62,178 bases of DNA from Actinomycetes bacterium (lineage in GTDB: Bacteria; Actinomycetota; Acidimicrobiia; Acidimicrobiales; RAAP-2), in the NCBI GenBank assembly GCA_021810205.1, contig JAJZJC010000003.1:1-62178 (forward strand). The letters are read 5' to 3'. Both the position numbers and the translations under genes were made by a program. The notes below the pieces were generated by a model. It was not told the origin of the DNA. It searched no databases and saw only the letters and a program-made list of their open reading frames with translations. Shown in pieces: positions 1 through 8,363 of this stretch. The first letter of the stretch is position 1; every line of letters starts with the position of its first letter.

Positions 1-148
1 TCAGATGCCAGACGAGCCAGCCGATGGGGTTGGCCTCCTCGTCGATGCGGTAGCGGAGCTGCTCACGGGAAAGGCCCTCGAGCACTGCGAGCACCTCCTG
101 GCGCACGCGCCCGAAGCCGTCGGCAAGTAGCTCAGATGGAGACGCCAT
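1..148 (-). CDS. DinB/DUF664-like protein, N-terminal fragment cut by the window edge
   Basis: An open frame on the minus strand begins at ATG 148 and runs off the left end after 49 codons, so only the N-terminus is visible. It contains DGFGRVRQEVL and then EANPIGWLVWHL. The pattern of an early amphipathic helix followed by N..WL.WH is typical of the DinB/DUF664 four-helix metal-binding family, where the histidine of WH is the first metal ligand. A strong AGGAGG lies 7 nt before ATG 148; ATG 154 in the same frame sits too close to it. In this family the role is usually unknown or a thiol-dependent transferase. It diverges from the acetyltransferase operon. It is too short for the ORF track. 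Confidence 0.6.
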   Translation of the reverse strand, partial: MASPSELLADGFGRVRQEVLAVLEGLSREQLRYRIDEEANPIGWLVWHL

Positions 149-367
149 GGTCATCCCTCCTCGTCATCGCATGACGGGTGCGAACCGGTGACACCTGTCA
201 GGCAGTTCGCCACGTCGATCGATCGGCCGGTGGTGGGGTTCGGTACCCCGCGGCGCTCTTCTTGCAACGATCGACGCTACTGGACGTGGCTCGACGTGGC
301 GTCTCGTACCCGCTCTGGGAGATCAGGAGGCGGGGCGGACCGTCATCTGAGGCGCGATCCTTGTGGG

Positions 368-1057
368 GTGACGGTGGCGGGTGCAGGGACAGCGGCACAG
401 GAGGTCACCGCCGGGCGCTACCCGGTGGAGCTCGAGCGCGATGTCCGGATCCCGAACGGCGCGGAGATCCACCTTCGCCCGATCCGACCCGACGATGCGC
501 CCAAGCTCGTCGCGTTCCACTCGTCGCTTTCCGCGCAGTCGGTGTACCTGCGGTTCTTCACCTTCCATCCCGTTCTCACGGCGCGCGAAGTGGAGCGTTT
601 CACCCAAGTCGACTACGCCGACCGCCTGGCGTTCGTCGTCATGGACGGCGCTCGGATGGTCGCCGTGGGCCGCTTCGATCGGGTCGCGCGGTCCCGACGG
701 GCCGAGGTGGCGTTCGTCGTCGACGACGACTACCAGCACCAGGGGATCGGGACGTTGCTGGCCGACGAGCTTGCCTCCGCGGCGCGCGCACGTGGTATCG
801 ATGAGTTCGTGGCCGACACGCTGCCGGAGAACACGTCGATGCTCGAGATGTTCCGGCGCACGGGCTTTCCCGTGCGCAGCTCCTACGAAGACGGGCTCGT
901 ACGGGTCCGGTTCGCCATCGAGCCGGTGCCGGCGTACGTCGAGGCCCTCGAGCGGCGCGAGGCGCGACGGCGGCCACCGAGGCGCGCGTCTGGGTCTGCG
1001 TCACCACCTTCCGCCGGCTCGAACGCGCGAGACGGCCGCGGGGGAGCGGGTCGATGA
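368..1057 (+). CDS. GNAT protein acetyltransferase (Pat/PatZ acetyltransferase-domain type)
   Basis: A GNAT-fold acetyltransferase of about 229 aa. The core LRPIRPDDAPKL, SVYLRFF, AFVVDDDYQHQGIGTLLADEL (acetyl-CoA binding loop Q-H-Q-G-I-G) and PENTSMLEMFRRTGF closely follows the catalytic domain of bacterial protein lysine acetylases of the Pat/PatZ group. It lacks the cyclic-nucleotide domain of mycobacterial Pat and the acyl-CoA-synthetase-like domain of PatZ. The ORF track opens at 188, but the first 60 residues are Arg-rich and unconserved, so GTG 368 is preferred; no well-spaced ribosome site decides it. Its stop overlaps the start of the deacetylase gene (ATGA), which suggests a writer/eraser pair for protein acetylation. 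The substrate is inferred, not seen. Confidence 0.82.
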   Translation: MTVAGAGTAAQEVTAGRYPVELERDVRIPNGAEIHLRPIRPDDAPKLVAFHSSLSAQSVYLRFFTFHPVLTAREVERFTQVDYADRLAFVVMDGARMVAVGRFDRVARSRRAEVAFVVDDDYQHQGIGTLLADELASAARARGIDEFVADTLPENTSMLEMFRRTGFPVRSSYEDGLVRVRFAIEPVPAYVEALERREARRRPPRRASGSASPPSAGSNARDGRGGAGR

Positions 1058-2160
1058 CGACCGTGGTCCTCGCCGGTCCCGCAGGGGAGTCGGCGCACGA
1101 CGGCGGCCCGCATCCCGAATCGCCGGCGCGGGTGGTTGCCGCCATGAAGGGCGTCCACGATCTCCATCTCGGCTCCGACCTCGTGACTGTCGACGTCGGA
1201 CCCGCCTCGAGAGAGGACCTCGCGCGCGTTCACTCCCTCCGGTACCTCGACGAGCTCGAAGCATTCTCGGGGCGGGGCGGGGGCGCCTTGGACCCCGACA
1301 CCTTCGTCACCTCCGACTCCTGGGACGCCGCGTGCCGTGCGGCGGGCGCGGGACTTGCGGCCGTCGCCGAGCTCGAGCGGCGACGCGACGGCGTCGGCTT
1401 CGTCGCGGCCCGTCCACCCGGGCACCATGCCGTGCGGTCGCGCGGCATGGGATTCTGCCTCTTGAACAACGTCGCAGTGACCGCCGCGTCACTCGTAGCC
1501 GGCGGCGCACGTGTGGCCATCGTGGACTGGGACGTCCACCACGGCAACGGGACCCAGGAGATCTTCTGGGATGAGCCGGCCGTCCTCTACATCTCGACCC
1601 ACCAGTCACCTCTCTACCCCGGGACCGGTCGCCCTGATGAGATCGGGGGCGCCAGGGCGCGCGGCAAGACGGTGAACATCCCCCTGCCCCCCGGCGCCAC
1701 CGGCGACGTGGTGTCGCTCGCGTTCAGCGAGGTGGTTGCTCCGGCGGTCGATTCCTTCGTCCCGGACTGGATCCTCGTCTCGTGCGGCTTCGACGCTCAT
1801 CGCGCCGACCCGCTCGCCGAGCTCGCGCTCTCGAGCGCGGACTTCGCGGCGCTCGCTGCGACCGTCCAGCAGCTCGCGCCCTGCGGGGGTCGCACCGTGC
1901 TCTTCCTCGAGGGAGGCTACGACTTGCAGGCGGTGCGGCGCTCCACGGCGTCCACGATCGGTGCGCTCGTGGGGGACCGGACGTTTCCCGAGGACCCGAC
2001 GTTCGGGGGACCGGGGGCCGACGCGGTGCGCGCGGCGACGATGCTGCGCGAGCGGGCCCTGTCGGAGGTGGACAAGGAGTGCAGCGGGGGCGGGAGCCTC
2101 GACGCACCGCACACAGGAAGCCGCGGGGCCCCGACGACAAGGCTGAGGAGCGACTGGTGA
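1054..2160 (+). CDS. Histone-deacetylase-family (AcuC-like) zinc deacetylase
   Basis: 368 aa, the usual size for the family. The zinc/active-site signature is complete: RPPGHH (about residues 120-125), DVHHGNGT (160-167), SCGFDAH and LEGGYD. These supply the general-base histidine pair, the Asp/His/Asp zinc ligands and the GGY loop. Relatives include AcuC, acetylpolyamine amidohydrolase and class II HDACs; AcuC deacetylates acetyl-CoA synthetase. The gene overlaps the acetyltransferase upstream by 4 nt and the universal stress gene downstream by 4 nt (GTGA), so the three are almost certainly one transcript. The last 45 residues are hydrophilic and variable. I infer protein lysine deacetylation from the neighbouring acetyltransferase; a small-molecule amide substrate remains possible. 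Confidence 0.9.
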   Translation: MTTVVLAGPAGESAHDGGPHPESPARVVAAMKGVHDLHLGSDLVTVDVGPASREDLARVHSLRYLDELEAFSGRGGGALDPDTFVTSDSWDAACRAAGAGLAAVAELERRRDGVGFVAARPPGHHAVRSRGMGFCLLNNVAVTAASLVAGGARVAIVDWDVHHGNGTQEIFWDEPAVLYISTHQSPLYPGTGRPDEIGGARARGKTVNIPLPPGATGDVVSLAFSEVVAPAVDSFVPDWILVSCGFDAHRADPLAELALSSADFAALAATVQQLAPCGGRTVLFLEGGYDLQAVRRSTASTIGALVGDRTFPEDPTFGGPGADAVRAATMLRERALSEVDKECSGGGSLDAPHTGSRGAPTTRLRSDW

Positions 2161-2564
2161 GTGTGCCACGACTGATCGCTGTCGGCTATGACGGCTCTGC
2201 GGACTCCGTTGCTGCGCTGCGCTGGGGTGCGGAGATCGCATCCACCATCGGGGCAAGGCTCCGGATCGTCCACGCCGTGGGGCTCCTCGAGCACGCTGGC
2301 CTGAGCGGTCGGTGCAGCCCGCACGAGCAGGCCGCGACCGACGTCGCGTGCCGGGTGGGGCTCGACATCGCCCAGGTGGAGTGGCGCGTCCGTGACGGAG
2401 AGCCTGCTGCGGTCCTCCGGCGAGAGACGCTGGGTGACGACGCTGCGGACCTCTTGGTAGTGGGAACGCGTGGCGCCGGGGCGCACGGTGGCGGCACGCT
2501 CGGGAGTACCTCGCTCGACCTCGCCCAGACCGCCACTGTCCCGGTCGTCGTGGTGGCAGGCTGA
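2157..2564 (+). CDS. Universal stress protein, single UspA domain
   Basis: 135 aa starting at GTG 2157, which overlaps the deacetylase stop (GTGA) and has GAGGAG a few bases upstream. It has the Usp fold start (LIAVGYDGSADSVAALRWGAEIA) and the ATP-binding loop GTRGAGAHGGGTLGSTS near the C-terminus, matching G-2X-G-9X-G(S/T). It is therefore probably an ATP-binding member. A universal stress protein is a known target of the cAMP-regulated lysine acetylase in mycobacteria, which makes its position behind an acetyltransferase and a deacetylase notable. It is convergent with the second Usp gene across a 47-bp gap in which I see no clear terminator. Confidence 0.9.
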   Translation: MSVPRLIAVGYDGSADSVAALRWGAEIASTIGARLRIVHAVGLLEHAGLSGRCSPHEQAATDVACRVGLDIAQVEWRVRDGEPAAVLRRETLGDDAADLLVVGTRGAGAHGGGTLGSTSLDLAQTATVPVVVVAG

Positions 2565-2611
2565 ACCTGCCGGCGGTTCGGCGAACGCGGCGGGGAGCCC
2601 CGGATCAACGA

Positions 2612-3070
2612 TCAAGCGGAACGATCGTGCTGGCCTGTGCGGTCGTGGTAGACGACGACGGGGCAGTGCGCGTGGCCAACGCAGTGTTTGCTGACCGAGC
2701 CGAGCAGCATGCCTGCCAGCTGGCGGTGGCCGCGCGAGCCGATCACGAGTAGGGCGGCGCCGCGTGACACGTCGACGAGCCGGGCGGCCGCGCTCCCTTC
2801 CAAAGCGGTGCCTTCGACGTCGATCGAGGGATTGAGCGCCCGCGCCCGGGCTACCCCCTCGTCGACGAGGCGCTGTGCGTCGTCCTGTGGCTGGTAACCC
2901 TCGGGTAACGGCATCGCCCAGCCGTAGCTGGTCGGCCATTCCCAGGCGACGACGACGCGGAGCTTTGCGTCGCTGCGGACGCACTCCGCCACCGCCCAGG
3001 CCAGGGCCCCGAACGAGGACGTCGAGCCATCCACCCCGACGACCACGACATCGTGCTCGTGCTCGCTCAT
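2612..3070 (-). CDS. Universal stress protein, single UspA domain (DosR-regulon type)
   Basis: 152 aa from ATG 3070, preceded by AGGAGGT at good spacing. The ORF track extends to 3211, but that extension lacks Usp similarity and would cover the operator-like site. N-terminal VVVVGVDGSTSSFGALAWAVAECVR and C-terminal VIGSRGHRQLAGMLLGSVSKHC are diagnostic, and the second carries the ATP loop. A DosR-like inverted repeat lies about 75-90 bp upstream, and the sensor kinase gene ends just beyond it. In mycobacteria single- and double-domain Usp proteins are among the most strongly DosR-induced genes, so hypoxia or nitric-oxide control is the likely reading. Confidence 0.9.
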   Translation of the reverse strand: MSEHEHDVVVVGVDGSTSSFGALAWAVAECVRSDAKLRVVVAWEWPTSYGWAMPLPEGYQPQDDAQRLVDEGVARARALNPSIDVEGTALEGSAAARLVDVSRGAALLVIGSRGHRQLAGMLLGSVSKHCVGHAHCPVVVYHDRTGQHDRSA

Positions 3071-3143
3071 GTCGGACCTCCTGCACCGTGCGCCCTGGCA
3101 CTCGGTGCGGGCTGACCGTACGAGGTCGCTGGGGCAAGGAGTA

Positions 3144-3158
3144 GGGACCTTCGGCTCC
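3144..3158. promoter_or_regulatory. DosR/DevR-like operator upstream of the universal stress gene
   Basis: GGGACCTTCGGCTCC. It resembles the DosR box (consensus core GGGACTWWAGTCCC, with natural variants of the type GGGACCTTCGGCCCT). It lies in the 121-bp gap between the kinase stop (3192) and the stress-protein start (3070). The match was made by eye; no matrix score was computed. Confidence 0.55.
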
Positions 3159-3191
3159 TTGCCACCGACGGCTGGCCCCCCGGCACACGGG

Positions 3192-4334
3192 TCAGGGGGG
3201 GAGCGGGACACGCCAGGTCAACGTGGTTCCCTTCCCGCCGGGAGACGAGACGACGAGGTCGCCCCCGAGCCTCTCCGCTCGACGCCGGATGTTCTGCATC
3301 CCGAGCCCGCCGCCGCTCGTGCGGCGGCTCGAACCAGTGATGCCTCGGCCGTCGTCGGTCACCACGAGCGTGCAGGTGTCCTCGGCCACCGACAGCTTCA
3401 CCGACGCACGGGTGGCCCGCGCATGCCGACCGATGTTCGTGAGGGACTCACGGACGGTGAAGAGGACATGGGCTGCCATGTCGCTCGGGATCTCGGTGTC
3501 CACGGGGCCCTCGAAAGTGACCGACGGGTCGAATCCGACGACGGCTCGGAGCTCTCGCACGAGCGCGAGGACGCTCGCCCGGAGGCTGCGGCGCCCCGAC
3601 TCCGCCGCCAGCTCGAAGATCGAGGACCGGATCTGGCGGATGGTCTCGTCGATGTCGGCGATGGCCTGTCCGAGCCGCTCCACCGTCTCGGAGGCCAAGG
3701 GCGGGCGCGCGAGGCTCTGCAGCGAGAGGCCGACCGCGAAGAGCCGTTGGATCACTGCATCGTGCAGGTCCCTGGCGATGCGGTCTCGGTCCTCGAGCAG
3801 CGCCACCTCTTGAACCCGCAGGTGGAGGCGCGCGCTGGCGATCACCACGCCGGCGGCATGGGCGAACGCCAGGACGAGGTTCTCGTCGTCCTTCGTGAAC
3901 TCCGAGCACCCGACTTTCTCGGTGAGGTAGAGGTTGCCGTAGACCTCGTCACGCGCCACCACGGGTACTCCCAGGAACGAGGACATGTGCGGATGTCCTT
4001 CAGGGAATCCAGCGCTGTGTGGATGCGTGGAGATGTCCGCGATCCGCAGTGGTTTCGGGTCCGTGATGAGGAGCCCAAGGACGCCCAATCCGGTGGGCCG
4101 GTGCGCGATCGCCCGCTCTTGTTCTTCGGTGATCCCGACGGTGATGAATTCGGAGAGCGCCGTTCGGTTGTCGTTCAGCACCCCGAGTGCGCCGTAGCGG
4201 GCGTTCGTCATCGAGCACGCCTCCTCGACGAAGTGACGTAGGAGCACTGGGAGACTGAGGTCGGCTTCGAGCAGGAGGACCGCATCGAGCAGGCGTCGCA
4301 GCGTCGCGGGATCGTCGATGTGCCGATACGGCAT
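3192..4334 (-). CDS. DosS/DevS-like GAF sensor histidine kinase
   Basis: 380 aa from ATG 4334 (MPYRHIDD). A single GAF domain spans about 30-170, with ARYGALGVL and SSFLGVPVVARDEVYGNLYLTEK as in mycobacterial DosS. The HisKA_3 dimerisation helix follows with phospho-acceptor His191 (RDLHDAVIQRLFAVG). A C-terminal HATPase domain has the N box (Asn300) and DDGRGI. Mycobacterial DosS and DosT have two GAF domains; here there is one. In the stretch GFPEGHPHM, His114 aligns by eye with the heme-ligand histidine of the DosS GAF-A domain, so heme-based O2/redox sensing is plausible but inferred. The probable partner is the response regulator at 5031-5705, on the same strand but separated by an opposite-strand gene. 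The ORF-track extension to 4661 is unconserved. Confidence 0.9.
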   Translation of the reverse strand: MPYRHIDDPATLRRLLDAVLLLEADLSLPVLLRHFVEEACSMTNARYGALGVLNDNRTALSEFITVGITEEQERAIAHRPTGLGVLGLLITDPKPLRIADISTHPHSAGFPEGHPHMSSFLGVPVVARDEVYGNLYLTEKVGCSEFTKDDENLVLAFAHAAGVVIASARLHLRVQEVALLEDRDRIARDLHDAVIQRLFAVGLSLQSLARPPLASETVERLGQAIADIDETIRQIRSSIFELAAESGRRSLRASVLALVRELRAVVGFDPSVTFEGPVDTEIPSDMAAHVLFTVRESLTNIGRHARATRASVKLSVAEDTCTLVVTDDGRGITGSSRRTSGGGLGMQNIRRRAERLGGDLVVSSPGGKGTTLTWRVPLPP

Positions 4335-4428
4335 GCGGGAAAAGGTAGCGCCCTCGCTACGGGTGCTGCGCATGCACGGGTGGCAACCGAGACGCCGTCG
4401 AGCGCACCGAAGGGTCGCTAGCCGGTGC

Positions 4429-4445
4429 CGCAGATGACATCTGCG
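4429..4445. promoter_or_regulatory. Perfect 17-bp inverted repeat between the kinase gene and the hypothetical gene
   Basis: CGCAGATGACATCTGCG: two 8-bp arms around one central base, an operator-like geometry. It lies in the roughly 320-bp gene-free gap between the divergent kinase start (4334) and the 4654 gene. The rest of that gap holds a 6-bp hairpin (GTAGCG/CGCTAC, 4345-4360) in the kinase leader and no convincing DosR box. The binding protein is unknown. Confidence 0.4.
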
Positions 4446-4653
4446 CGACCGCGCCATGTGACGGAGGACTCTGTTTCCCGGCTCTCGAAAGGACTGACAG
4501 TGGGCGCAGCGGACTCCTCGAGCACCGAGCTCGTCGAGCATGGCACGGGGCGATAGCGAGCGCGTCGAGCAGCCGGACCGTCGGAAGCCGGCGGTCGGCT
4601 CGGGGGAAAGTAGGCGCAGTGGCGGAATCCAGCTCCACGCGAGGCTGAAGACG

Positions 4654-5055
4654 GTGTCCATCTACAGCGATCTCCTCGAGGCTTCCTGGCGGACGCAGGA
4701 GGGCGCCGACGATGGGGGAGCGAGGCGGCGCGCCGACGCGCACGAGCTGCATCGCCTCCTCGACGAGGCGATCGAGCGGCGGCGAGACTGCGAAGGGCAC
4801 ACTCGCGCCTTCGACGGACGGTTCGGCGTCACGGTGGACGCGCCGTCAGACCTCGCCAGGCAGCTCGCCTACGACCTCGCGTTGATGCGGCTGTGCGCGG
4901 CGCACGGGATCGTCTGCGACGTCCGCCGCTTCACACGGCCGATTCCCGAGCGCACGCGTCTGGAAGAAGCGCTCGAGCGCAAGGGCGTCGTGCTGCGCGA
5001 CCGGCGACGCGAGCGCTCGGGATCGACTGACTACGCGCTCCCTGAAGGGTCGTAG
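4654..5055 (+). CDS. Conserved-looking hypothetical protein between sensor and regulator genes
   Basis: I do not recognise a named family. From GTG 4654 the product is about 133 aa, helical and charged: SIYSDLLEASWRTQ, then AHELHRLLDEAIERRRDC, then DLARQLAYDLALMRLCAAHGI. It ends in a basic tail. The frame is open from 4540, but the earlier residues look non-coding. The gene lies antisense to its neighbours, between the DosS-like kinase and the DosR-like regulator, and its end overlaps the regulator's end by 25 bp (convergent). The all-helical character and position suggest a small accessory or partner protein of the two-component system; this is inference only. Confidence 0.55.
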   Translation: MSIYSDLLEASWRTQEGADDGGARRRADAHELHRLLDEAIERRRDCEGHTRAFDGRFGVTVDAPSDLARQLAYDLALMRLCAAHGIVCDVRRFTRPIPERTRLEEALERKGVVLRDRRRERSGSTDYALPEGS

Positions 5056-5705
5056 CGGCCCTCGACGGACTTGCGCTCCGCGAGCCTCGTGGCGAACACA
5101 GCGGCTTCGGTCCGGCGCTGCATCCCCAGCTTCGCCAGGAGATTGGAGACGTAGTTCTTCACCGTCTTCTCGGCCAAGTAGAGCTCCTCGCCGATCTGGC
5201 GATTGGTCTTCCCCTCTGCAATACCGTCGAGGATCTTTCGCTCTTGCGCGGTGAGGGCCGCGAGACGCTCGTCTTCGTGTGGTCCGCGCCGAAGGCGTTC
5301 CAGCACTCGCTCGGTAAGCCTGTGGTCCAAGAGCGATCCGCCGCTCCCGACCTTCTTGACGTCGGCAACGAGGTCGCTGCCGCTCACCTGCTTGAGGACA
5401 TAGCCGGCGGCACCGGCCATCACTGCGGCGAGCAGCGCCTCGTCGTCCGCGTACGACGTCAACATGAGGCATGCGATGTCGGGGTGCTCGGACCGGATGT
5501 CCCGGCACACCTCGATACCGGTGCCGTCCGGCAGCCGCACGTCGAGGATCGCCACGTCGGGCTTGGCGAGCGGGATGCGGACGAGGGCATCGTGGACGGT
5601 ACCGGCCTCGCCGACGACTTCGAGGTCTTCATCGGTCTCGAGGAGGGACCGCAGGCCCGTGCGAACGACTTCGTGGTCGTCGAGCAGGAAGACCCTGAGC
5701 GTCAT
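5031..5705 (-). CDS. DosR/DevR-like NarL-family response regulator
   Basis: 224 aa from ATG 5705. The receiver domain has the acidic pair DDHEVVRTGL, phospho-acceptor Asp55 in ILDVRLPDG, a conserved Thr/Ser in LTSYADDEA and Lys in GYVLKQ. The LuxR-type helix-turn-helix at the C-terminus reads LTAQERKILDGIAEGKTNRQIGEELYLAEKTVKNYVSNLLAKLGMQRRTEAAVFA, nearly the same wording as mycobacterial DosR, including the TVKNYV recognition helix. That supports both orthology of function and the use of DosR-type operators, several of which are present nearby. The ORF-track extension upstream to 5828 is not needed. The DosR-like box at 5854-5870 lies about 150 bp upstream of its start and could mediate autoregulation. 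Confidence 0.93.
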   Translation of the reverse strand: MTLRVFLLDDHEVVRTGLRSLLETDEDLEVVGEAGTVHDALVRIPLAKPDVAILDVRLPDGTGIEVCRDIRSEHPDIACLMLTSYADDEALLAAVMAGAAGYVLKQVSGSDLVADVKKVGSGGSLLDHRLTERVLERLRRGPHEDERLAALTAQERKILDGIAEGKTNRQIGEELYLAEKTVKNYVSNLLAKLGMQRRTEAAVFATRLAERKSVEGRYDPSGSA

Positions 5706-5853
5706 GGTGCAAGTCTGCCACGGTGCCACCCGCGATGAGCGCGTCTTGTGTGGGCGCCGTCGATACCCTCGCGGCCGCGCTCCCGGTCGGGGTCGCCAGC
5801 CGTGCTCGCAGGGCTCGCGTCGGTGCATCGTGGGGTCACAGCAGTCGCAGGCG

Positions 5854-5870
5854 GGGGACCTTTGCCCCTA
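5854..5870. promoter_or_regulatory. DosR/DevR-like operator between the regulator and sigma-factor genes
   Basis: GGGGACCTTTGCCCCTA. It has the GGGAC...CCC spacing and TTT centre of known DosR boxes. It is 90-106 bp upstream of the sigma-factor ATG (5960) and about 150 bp upstream of the divergent regulator ATG (5705), so it could serve either gene. Confidence 0.55.
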
Positions 5871-5959
5871 TCGATCGCAGGGGTCGTGCGCTGTACTTGC
5901 TCTGGGGCGGCCGACGCGGGTGCCGCCTATGCGGTGGAGGGGGGCCCTGGAGGTAGGAC

Positions 5960-6916
5960 ATGGCGCGGCCCATGGGTATGGCGGAAGACGAGGAAGCCGG
6001 CAAGGCGCATGGGGAGGCAGTCCCCGAGCTCGATCTCGTCCGTCTCTACCTCGACGAATTGGGCTCGCACGCGCTGCTCGATCGAGACGATGAGGTGCGA
6101 CTCGCACAGCTGATCGACGCGGGCCACGTGGCCGAGCGGGCGCTGTCGGCGGGGACCGGCCTCACGCGCGCCGAGCGCCGAGCCCTTGAAGCGGCGGTCC
6201 ATGCGGGCCGGGCGGCGCGCGCGGAGTTCATCCGGGCGAACCTCCGTCTCGTCGTCTCGATCGCCAAGCACTACCAGTTCCACGGTGTCGAGCTCGCCGA
6301 CCTCCTCCAAGAGGGAAACCTTGGCCTCATGCGCGCGATCGAACGGTTCGACTGGCGCCGAGGCTTCAAGTTCTCGACCTACGCGACCTGGTGGATACGA
6401 AAGGCAGTGGTGCAGGCGATCAGCGACATGTCGTCGACGGTGCGCATGCCGCGGAACCGGCGTGACCAGGCTCGCCAGATCACCGAGGCGACCGAGCGGC
6501 TGGAGCGGAGCACCGGCCACCTTCCAGGAACAGGTGAGATCGCCAGGGAGACGGGCATGCATCCTTCGGAGGTCGCGTCCATCCGTCGAGCGTCGGCACG
6601 GGTGGTCTCCCTCTCGGCGCCGGTCGACGAAGACGGCAACGAGCTGGTCGACCTCGTGGCGGATCCCCATGGTGACGTCGCTGAAGTGGCTGAGCGCTCG
6701 GTCGTCGCGACGGAGGTCGAACGGCTCTTGGGGCACCTCTCCCCATCGTCAGCGAACGTCCTTCGTCTTCGCTACGGCCTGGATCCGGGTGGCCGACAGC
6801 GGACCGCGGCGGAGGTCGGTGCGATGCTTTCGATCTCTGCCGAGCGGGTACGCCAGATCGAGGGCAGGGCGCTCACGCGCCTGCGTCAGCGGCTCCCGCG
6901 CGATCTGGCATCCTGA
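5960..6916 (+). CDS. RNA polymerase sigma-70 factor, primary-like (group 2)
   Basis: 318 aa from ATG 5960 with GGAGGT just upstream. Region 1.2 is DLVRLYLDELGSHALL. Region 2 is complete: [54 protein letters not shown]. Region 3 follows (ARQITEATERL... P.. EIARETGM), then region 4.2 (EVGAMLSISAERVRQIEGRALTRLR). The short N-terminus without a long region 1.1 argues for an alternative group 2 factor rather than the housekeeping RpoD. It is adjacent to the DosR-like regulator with a DosR-like box in its promoter region, which suggests that the two-component system may switch on a sigma factor. Confidence 0.92.
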   Translation: MARPMGMAEDEEAGKAHGEAVPELDLVRLYLDELGSHALLDRDDEVRLAQLIDAGHVAERALSAGTGLTRAERRALEAAVHAGRAARAEFIRANLRLVVSIAKHYQFHGVELADLLQEGNLGLMRAIERFDWRRGFKFSTYATWWIRKAVVQAISDMSSTVRMPRNRRDQARQITEATERLERSTGHLPGTGEIARETGMHPSEVASIRRASARVVSLSAPVDEDGNELVDLVADPHGDVAEVAERSVVATEVERLLGHLSPSSANVLRLRYGLDPGGRQRTAAEVGAMLSISAERVRQIEGRALTRLRQRLPRDLAS

Positions 6917-7047
6917 GCGCGCCGTCGTCGCGTCGAGCGGTCTCGTCGTTTCGGGTTCCCTCACGCACGCGCTCGAAGCGCGCGCACACCACATGCGCGG
7001 AGGCGCCGTGCGCTCGCGCTCATCGACACTGGTAGCGACGTCAGATC

Positions 7048-7061
7048 GGGACCTTCGGTCC
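7048..7061. promoter_or_regulatory. DosR/DevR-like operator, distal copy, upstream of the 7168 gene
   Basis: GGGACCTTCGGTCC, an inverted repeat (GGACC-TTC-GGTCC). Of the four boxes in the window it has the cleanest symmetry. It is about 107-120 bp upstream of the membrane-protein ATG. Confidence 0.6.
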
Positions 7062-7069
7062 AGCCTGGG

Positions 7070-7085
7070 GTGACCTCCGGCCCTG
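7070..7085. promoter_or_regulatory. DosR/DevR-like operator, proximal copy, upstream of the 7168 gene
   Basis: GTGACCTCCGGCCCTG, a weaker variant of the same motif. It begins 22 bp (two helical turns) after the distal copy, a spacing suited to cooperative binding of two dimers on one DNA face. Tandem boxes are typical of the most strongly induced DosR targets. Confidence 0.45.
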
Positions 7086-7167
7086 CGCTCGTGCTCGTGA
7101 AGGTGCGCACCCTATAGAAGGAAAGTCCCACGCGGCGGCGTAGGAACGATTGACAAGGGAGCACATC

Positions 7168-7758
7168 ATGAAGCGCAAGACGTTCGACCTGATCTTCACG
7201 GTAGGCGGTGCCGCATTGGTGGTGATACTCGTCGTCGCGGGCGCGCTGTTGTTGGTGGGGGCGAACTACACCAACACCAACGTTCACGACCAGCTCGCCC
7301 GTCAAGAGATCTTCTTCCCGACGACCAAGCAGATCAACACACCGAAGGGCGAGGACTACATCTCGAGGAACGTCCAGCTTCCCTATGCCGGTCAGCAGGT
7401 GCTCACCGGTACACAGGCCAAGGCGTATGCCTACAAGGTGCAGATGGACATGTACCCGATGCCCTTCCACGGCGTCTACTCGAAGGTCTCCGCCTTCTCG
7501 AGGGCGCACCCGACAACAAAGAAGATGGCGGCTCTCGTGACAGTGTCCTTCCGAGGGACGACCCTCCAGGGGCTCCTGCTCGAGGCGTACGCCTTCTCGC
7601 AGTTCGGCACGATCGCTACTGACGGCGCAATCGCCGCCTTCTCTTTGGCGTTCCTCATGCTGGTGCTGACCGGGCTCGGTCTGTGGCACACCCGCCGGGT
7701 CGACGTGTCCGAGGAGTTCCCGAAGTCGCTCGTCGAGGTCACGTCGAAGGCCGCCTGA
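7168..7758 (+). CDS. Two-TM membrane protein of unknown function, probable DosR-type target
   Basis: 196 aa from ATG 7168 (AAGGGAG 6 nt upstream; the ORF-track start at 7150 has none). One membrane helix near the N-terminus (residues 12-33, TVGGAALVVILVVAGALLLVG) and one near the C-terminus (about 152-174, GAIAAFSLAFLMLVLTGLGLW) flank an outward-facing domain of about 115 aa with VHDQLARQEIFFPT and YAGQQVLTGTQAKAYAYKVQ. No cysteines or cofactor motifs are visible. I do not recognise a characterised family. Codon use and GC match its neighbours but the protein is richer in Lys, Thr and Tyr. Two DosR-like boxes upstream and a strong hairpin terminator downstream make it a single-gene transcription unit. 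Confidence 0.75.
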   Translation: MKRKTFDLIFTVGGAALVVILVVAGALLLVGANYTNTNVHDQLARQEIFFPTTKQINTPKGEDYISRNVQLPYAGQQVLTGTQAKAYAYKVQMDMYPMPFHGVYSKVSAFSRAHPTTKKMAALVTVSFRGTTLQGLLLEAYAFSQFGTIATDGAIAAFSLAFLMLVLTGLGLWHTRRVDVSEEFPKSLVEVTSKAA

Positions 7759-7780
7759 GCGCGACCGCTGTAGTCGCAGG

Positions 7781-7820
7781 CAACGCCCTCCCGTCCGGGT
7801 TGCCCGGCGGGAGGGCGTTG
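7781..7820 (+). terminator. Strong hairpin, probable terminator of the 7168 gene
   Basis: Perfect 13-bp arms CAACGCCCTCCCG and CGGGAGGGCGTTG with a 14-nt loop, 22 bp after the stop codon. No U-tract is obvious, which is common in high-GC actinobacteria. It could also stop transcription coming from the right. Confidence 0.75.
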
Positions 7821-7873
7821 GCGCGTCCGGAGCAGCGCCAATCGGCAGCCGTTCACCGAAGCGGGGTGAGGAG

Positions 7874-8363
7874 TCAACGCATCCGCTCCTCGTAGTCGAC
7901 CCCGCGCTGGAGGTGACGGAGGTCCCTGTCGGGGAGCCGGCCCGCGCCTTGCCATCGAAGGAGCTCTTCGCGCTCGGCGTCGATCATCGCCGCACGCAGC
8001 CGTCGGCGCACGTGGCTGCGCGTCTCGGCAGGCTCCGCTTGCTCGGTTCGCTCGAGGGTGGCGAGACGGTCTTCGCTGTGCTGACGACGGAGCGATGCCA
8101 CGGCCTCTGAGGGGATCGACGACGTCCGGCGAGGACGAACGTCGTCGCGAGGACGAGGAGCACCGTCAGCGAGAGCACTGCGCCGCGGTTGCGCAAGAGG
8201 CCGTGGAGGAGAGGATCGTCGGGTCGATGCGCAACGACGGCAGCGGCTGTGCCGTGGACGCGGAGCCGGCCATGACGAGCACTACCGGCGCCTTGGTGGC
8301 GACGCGCTGGGCGACGATGATGACCACCCCCGCGGAGAAGGCGAACCCGATGTCCGCCAGCAC
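7874..8363 (-). pseudogene. Decayed CPA1-type Na+/H+ antiporter
   Basis: Fragments in three minus-strand reading segments together resemble a CPA1 (NhaP-type) sodium/proton antiporter. At 8363-8200 there is an N-terminal membrane stretch (FAFSAGVVIIVAQRVATKAPVVLVMAG, then PSLRIDP). In another frame just downstream is PLLHGLLRNRGAVLSLTVLLVLATTFVLAG, matching the next conserved membrane segment. At 8101-7874 is the typical soluble C-terminal tail (RRRLRAAMIDAEREELLRWQGAGRLPDRDLRHLQRGVDYEERM). The central several hundred residues with the ion-binding site are deleted and the pieces are out of frame, so no transporter can be made. This and short flanks fill the 715-bp stretch between 7758 and 8474. 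Confidence 0.6.

Follow-up and report, generated by a model that had tools for sequence, protein, structure and literature searches.

A conserved acetyltransferase, deacetylase and universal stress protein operon beside DosRS-like genes in Acidimicrobiales, a candidate variant of the acu-like acetylation module

The operon and its DosRS-like neighbours

In this work, we are describing three adjoining genes and their neighbourhood in a 62,178-nucleotide stretch of DNA (the window), which is a whole contig (C124) of a 3.0 Mb, 72% complete draft genome of an Acidimicrobiales bacterium. The genes encode a GNAT acetyltransferase, an HDAC-family deacetylase and a universal stress protein (Usp1), all on the forward strand, with a 4-nt overlap at both junctions that can be read directly from the sequence (Table 1). 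The three overlapping genes reported in the first-pass annotation are borne out by the ATGA and GTGA junctions, and their assignment to GNAT, deacetylase and Usp families by the Pfam matches. Because the genes overlap, co-transcription of all three is implied, and the overlap of GNAT with HDAC is supported as a translational unit of a predicted writer and eraser. The GTG start of Usp1 is backed by a matching -4 overlap (GTGA/ATGA) in nine relatives; the GNAT start at 368 is uncertain, conserved sequence beginning only near residue 17. No RNA elements were found in window positions 1-8000, nor any published GNAT-deacetylase-Usp operon in the open-access literature searched.

Table 1. Coordinates of the operon, its neighbouring genes and DosR-box-like sites in the window
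Feature	Positions	Strand	Basis
Pat-like stand-alone GNAT, predicted protein lysine acetyltransferase (writer)	368..1057	+	Pfam, phmmer, motifs
ATGA overlap, GNAT stop / HDAC start	1054..1057	+	sequence
Zn-dependent class II-like HDAC/HdaH deacetylase (predicted eraser)	1054..2160	+	PF00850, motifs
GTGA overlap, HDAC stop / Usp start	2157..2160	+	sequence; same overlap in relatives
Usp1, lysine-free universal stress protein with ATP motif	2157..2564	+	PF00582, AlphaFold model
Usp2, second Usp, convergent with operon	2612..3070	-	PF00582 E 7e-26; DosR-box-like site 74 nt upstream
DosR-box-like site upstream of Usp2	3144..3157	+	1 mismatch
DosS/DevS-like GAF histidine kinase, start uncertain	3192..4661	-	GAF + HisKA_3 + HATPase
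DosR/DevR-like response regulator with LAEKTVKNYV (K182 equivalent)	5031..5705	-	3c3w E 1e-75
DosR-box-like site upstream of DosR-like gene	5855..5868	+	0 mismatches
DosR-box-like site upstream of ORF 7150-7758	7048..7061	+	1 mismatch

The kinase matches the GAF-A domain of DevS (2y8h) with E 1e-42 and has one detected GAF domain with a predicted heme histidine and distal tyrosine, the 22-residue spacing of which is kept in relatives; it is predicted to be a DosS-like gas or redox sensor outside mycobacteria. The response regulator matches DevR/DosR of Mycobacterium tuberculosis, so that a DosR homologue, a DosS-type kinase with a predicted heme-GAF domain and DosR-type boxes are all present in the sequence. 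Homology to 3c3w and 2y8h upholds the earlier claim of a DosR-like system beside the operon, but these genes are convergent with it on the opposite strand and so are not on its message. A sigma-70-family factor gene (5960-6916, +) is divergent from the DosR homologue and shares with it the intergenic region holding the 5855 site; some genus members also have such a gene close to the locus.

Writer, eraser and Usp1

The GNAT belongs to PF00583 (E 2e-11), and its best solved match in phmmer is the GNAT domain of Streptomyces Pat (4nxy, E 2e-35); mycobacterial Pat (4ava) is matched with E 4e-20. It contains the acetyl-CoA motif QHQGIG and the conserved glutamate of AEVAF. With 229 residues and GNAT domains only, it fits the type IV GNATs, which consist of the catalytic domain alone (PMC8556138). 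The N-terminal cNMP-binding domain of mycobacterial Pat, a type III GNAT, is absent from it in Pfam, and its score against the NCBIfam Pat equivalog (104.6) is below the cut-off of 460. The earlier label "Pat-type" is apt for the related GNAT domain; this protein has no regulatory domain, unlike the cAMP-regulated mycobacterial writer.

In a midpoint-rooted tree, in which long and short GNATs were classed by their C-terminal extension, the short GNATs form a clade (support 96/91) that includes none of the 12 long GNAT domains; one short HDAC-adjacent GNAT (L103) is the sole short one just outside it. In one long Pat, CoA-binding, CoA-ligase and ATP-grasp domains were confirmed. Together, the tree and these domains set the short GNAT apart as an enzyme without a regulatory domain in cis, and loss of the C-terminal regulatory domain would be the likely direction of change. 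In four genomes (G023, G024, G031, G064), long Pat genes are also found a few kb or less from HDAC, so the linkage of writer and eraser may be older than the short GNAT.

The deacetylase matches PF00850 (E 2e-86), HDAC6 (E 1e-90) and HdaH (E 4e-55), and the best 60 of its 137 solved matches are of the HDAC6/HdaH/HDAC4/HDAC10 type. The Zn ligands, the His pair and the catalytic Tyr are intact, within motifs PPGHHA, DWDVHH, GFDAH and EGGYD. By sequence, the enzyme is class II-like (HdaH type). A strict AcuC identity was rejected, as the nearest matches are HDAC6 and HdaH and not class I HDACs; "AcuC-type", as it had been called, is right as to the HDAC family but loose, Bacillus AcuC being class I-like (PMC8556138). 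The orthologues of this deacetylase are markedly poor in lysine (mean 0.24% vs about 1.4% in neighbouring genes), and 36 of 80 (L064-L143) have none, whether or not a GNAT adjoins, which possibly reflects avoidance of self-acetylation.

PF00582 (E 5e-18) is the only Pfam domain of Usp1. The protein carries the motif G-2X-G-9X-G-S (GTRG-9X-GS), and in Usps the G-2X-G-9X-G-(S/T) motif correlates with ATP binding (PMC3673472); in some genus members its second glycine is lost. Among the closest folds to the AlphaFold model (26 sequences, pLDDT 84) are ATP-binding Usps, TeaD and cAMP-bound MSMEG_3811. Motif and model suggest that an adenine nucleotide (ATP, AMP, cAMP or Ap4A) is the most likely ligand of Usp1. 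Usp1 contains no lysine at all, and N-epsilon acetyl-lysine on it is therefore chemically impossible. Among 26 orthologues, 16 are lysine-free, nine have a single lysine and one has two; no lysine position is conserved, the most frequent column being common to 3/26. Given 1.5% lysine in the proteome, a lysine-free protein of 135 residues has a calculated chance of ~13%, which is unremarkable, and the argument against Usp1 as a target is thus chemical and not statistical.

The GNAT gene adjoins HDAC in every genus member in which HDAC was found (G007 having a fragment only) and in many family members. After removal of identical sequences, Usp1 follows HDAC in 25 further loci of related Acidimicrobiales, repeatedly with the -4 overlap. 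A genome search for the same three-gene order, suggested with the first annotation, thus found it in relatives, and with such recurrence in genus and family the order is not a matter of chance. Among 100 genomes spread over the phylum, GNAT-HDAC adjacency was not found, and the best GNAT matches there sit within long Pats of ~900-1000 aa. Every Usp1 found lies after HDAC, and a short GNAT is always present in the same locus or contig. Several GNAT-HDAC loci, including loci of the window's genus, are without Usp1 (L066, L069, L070, L072), and no hidden copy was found downstream of HDAC in loci without an annotated one; the module can therefore do without it.

DosR-type boxes and the link to dormancy control

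The full 20-nt DosR consensus of M. tuberculosis gave no site above 14/20 in the whole window. For this reason the searches used a shorter core, GGGACYTTNGNCCC, derived from the consensus TTSGGGACTWWAGTCCCSAA (PMC2275270), with shuffles and a reversed control as checks. Because the core was settled after the 5855 site had been seen, independent evidence comes from the sites in relatives and elsewhere in the genome and not from this one. Three core sites with at most one mismatch occur in the window, all at 3.1-7.1 kb, where 0.67 are expected, and 4 of 100 window shuffles also reach three. Genome-wide, there are 7 exact core sites vs 0 in the reversed control.

Upstream of the window's own operon no box was found within 3 mismatches, and of the nine genus loci a single one shows a site at one mismatch or fewer. 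Such a site lies upstream of GNAT in 12 of 23 loci (0.25 expected from shuffles) vs 3 of 57 HDAC loci without GNAT. Genes similar to dosR/S are nearby in 8/14 GNAT-HDAC loci vs 2/41 HDAC-only loci (Fisher p 9e-5, computed over related loci that are not phylogenetically independent); in one of these two HDAC-only loci, L068, a short GNAT is found at a distance of about 7 kb. From these site counts, DosR-type hypoxia control of the operon appears to operate in relatives; in this species it would be no more than conceivable, as the own operon has no site and the genus mostly none.

Exact DosR-box-like sites were also seen near other genes. In the own genome (L160, L162-L164) they lie near genes for Ni-SOD and a cupredoxin-domain protein and for a LigA-type dioxygenase subunit, with others of this set near a 2-hydroxyglutaryl-CoA dehydratase-like gene (by a TetR regulator) and an Fe-S/pyridine-nucleotide oxidoreductase gene; the genes near the sites in L160, L162, L163 and L164 form a candidate hypoxia regulon. 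A further exact site (L159, 4691-4704, contig C164) precedes an acetyl-CoA synthetase gene by about 580 nt, with an unassigned 141-aa ORF in between.

The proposed acetylation module, its alternatives and known systems

The best reading of the conserved operon is a variant of the acu-like acetylation module. The GNAT would acetylate shared protein substrates encoded elsewhere, and the Zn-dependent deacetylase would remove the acetyl group from the same substrates. The likeliest would be AMP-forming acetyl-CoA synthetases, possibly joined by the DosR homologue beside the operon, at the lysine with which it contacts DNA. Nucleotide-bound Usp1, in the place that AcuB holds in Bacillus, would adjust eraser or writer to the energy state, and in relatives the operon would be under DosR-type hypoxia control. 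For this complete scheme, with Usp1 in AcuB's place, we consider the chances to be even. Three AcsA proteins of the host genome are above the family cut-off, all with PKTRSGKIMRR, which includes the acetylatable PKTRSGK; their genes are on contigs C18, C20 and C164, and so no acs is at the locus. The idea of an acetylation switch for stress or dormancy, raised in the first-pass annotation, keeps its predicted writer and eraser and its conserved gene order, with a plausible DosR link, but loses the Usp as target.

We infer the regulatory role of Usp1 from position and fold only, and the analogy of position with AcuB is its main support: in Bacillus, the AcuB protein from the acuABC operon binds AMP or Ap4A and acts as an inhibitor of AcuC (PMC13121692, PMC13039410). 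Close behind the regulatory reading ranks the possibility that the Usp serves a separate stress function and never touches the acetylation enzymes, so that the operon provides shared expression and nothing more; this we regard as a serious but lesser prospect. In its favour, DosR regulons often include Usp genes (PMC10034137), a DosR-box-like site precedes Usp2, and several relatives lack Usp1 while GNAT-HDAC is present. Against it, Usp1 is a distinct orthologous group with invariant positions, restricted to short-GNAT loci or contigs, after HDAC, with a recurrent 4-nt overlap.

More tentatively, the DosR homologue might be the main target, its acetylated lysine shutting the regulon off and the deacetylase turning it on again, with the boxes closing a feedback loop. 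This overlaps with the acu-like module and is not exclusive of it. In M. tuberculosis, DosR K182 is acetylated by the Pat Rv0998 (PMC5861037) and deacetylated by the sirtuin Rv1151c (PMC5999986), and the acetylation abolishes DNA binding (PMC5861037, PMC5999986). Of 12 regulators neighbouring the operon in relatives, 11 have the equivalent lysine, and the neighbourhood and box statistics point the same way. Yet some operons have no dosRS nearby, no box precedes the window's own operon, and the lysine of TVKNYV would be kept anyway because it contacts DNA. In the DosR homologue of L089 this position is Arg (EKTVRNYV), where acetylation is impossible.

A more elaborate version, in which the Usp is a nucleotide-dependent allosteric partner of the deacetylase or acetyltransferase and replaces the cis regulatory domain within a hypoxia-controlled DosR feedback loop, seems to us rather unlikely as a whole. 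Improbable, too, is that the enzymes act on small amines, as an acetylpolyamine-type amidohydrolase and a small-molecule GNAT. The HDAC superfamily does include polyamine deacetylases (HDAC10, APAH), and small molecules are substrates of many GNATs, but the GNAT is nearest to Pat-type protein acetyltransferases and the deacetylase to HDAC6/HdaH, with a Leu aligning with the HDAC6 CD2 "DPL", where HDAC10 has its gatekeeper Glu.

That the GNAT acetylates a lysine of the Usp and HDAC removes it, as first assumed, is hardly credible, for although M. smegmatis Pat acetylates the Usp MSMEG_4207 at K104 (PMC6640162) and the overlaps imply co-transcription, Usp1 and most of its orthologues have no lysine to offer; N-epsilon-lysine acetylation of Usp1 is already refuted here, which leaves N-terminal or O-acetylation. 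Usp2 was rejected as a substitute target, its two lysines not being conserved in Usp2 orthologues.

Nucleotide-binding control of a bacterial AcuC, by AcuB, has been shown only recently, in two 2026 papers. If the acu-like reading is true, an unrelated nucleotide-binding fold in AcuB's place would point to repeated evolution of such control, a universal stress protein would gain a defined biochemical role, and through the DosRS linkage energy state, acetylation and hypoxia response would be connected in a large group of uncultured actinobacteria.

With Bacillus acuABC the operon has in common a stand-alone GNAT, a Zn-deacetylase and a small protein of adenine-nucleotide-binding fold, as well as acetyl-CoA synthetase as a likely substrate. 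It differs in gene order (GNAT-deacetylase-Usp), in a Pat-like GNAT unlike AcuA, in a class II-like and not class I-like deacetylase, and in a third protein that is a PF00582 Usp only, whereas AcuB is CBS+ACT; acs is not adjacent, and DosRS neighbours are present. The nearest GNAT sequences are those of Streptomyces and other actinobacterial type II Pats, with GNAT and CoA-ligase-like domains (4nxy; long Pats of the phylum), which carry a C-terminal regulatory domain that the operon GNAT does not have. The GNAT domain of the mycobacterial cAMP-dependent Pats (Rv0998 / MSMEG_5458) is also related. For these enzymes Usp and DosR are reported substrates, while the operon Usp has no lysine; they have a cNMP domain and a sirtuin as eraser, in contrast to the Zn-deacetylase here. 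As in the DosRS system of M. tuberculosis, a DosR homologue, a DevS-type GAF kinase, DosR-type boxes and Usp genes are found together, but one GAF domain was detected in our kinase and the locus is linked to an acetylation operon. TeaD and MSMEG_3811/Rv1636 share fold and ATP motif with Usp1; TeaD is tied to a transporter and MSMEG_3811 binds cAMP, whereas the putative partner of Usp1 would be an acetylation enzyme.
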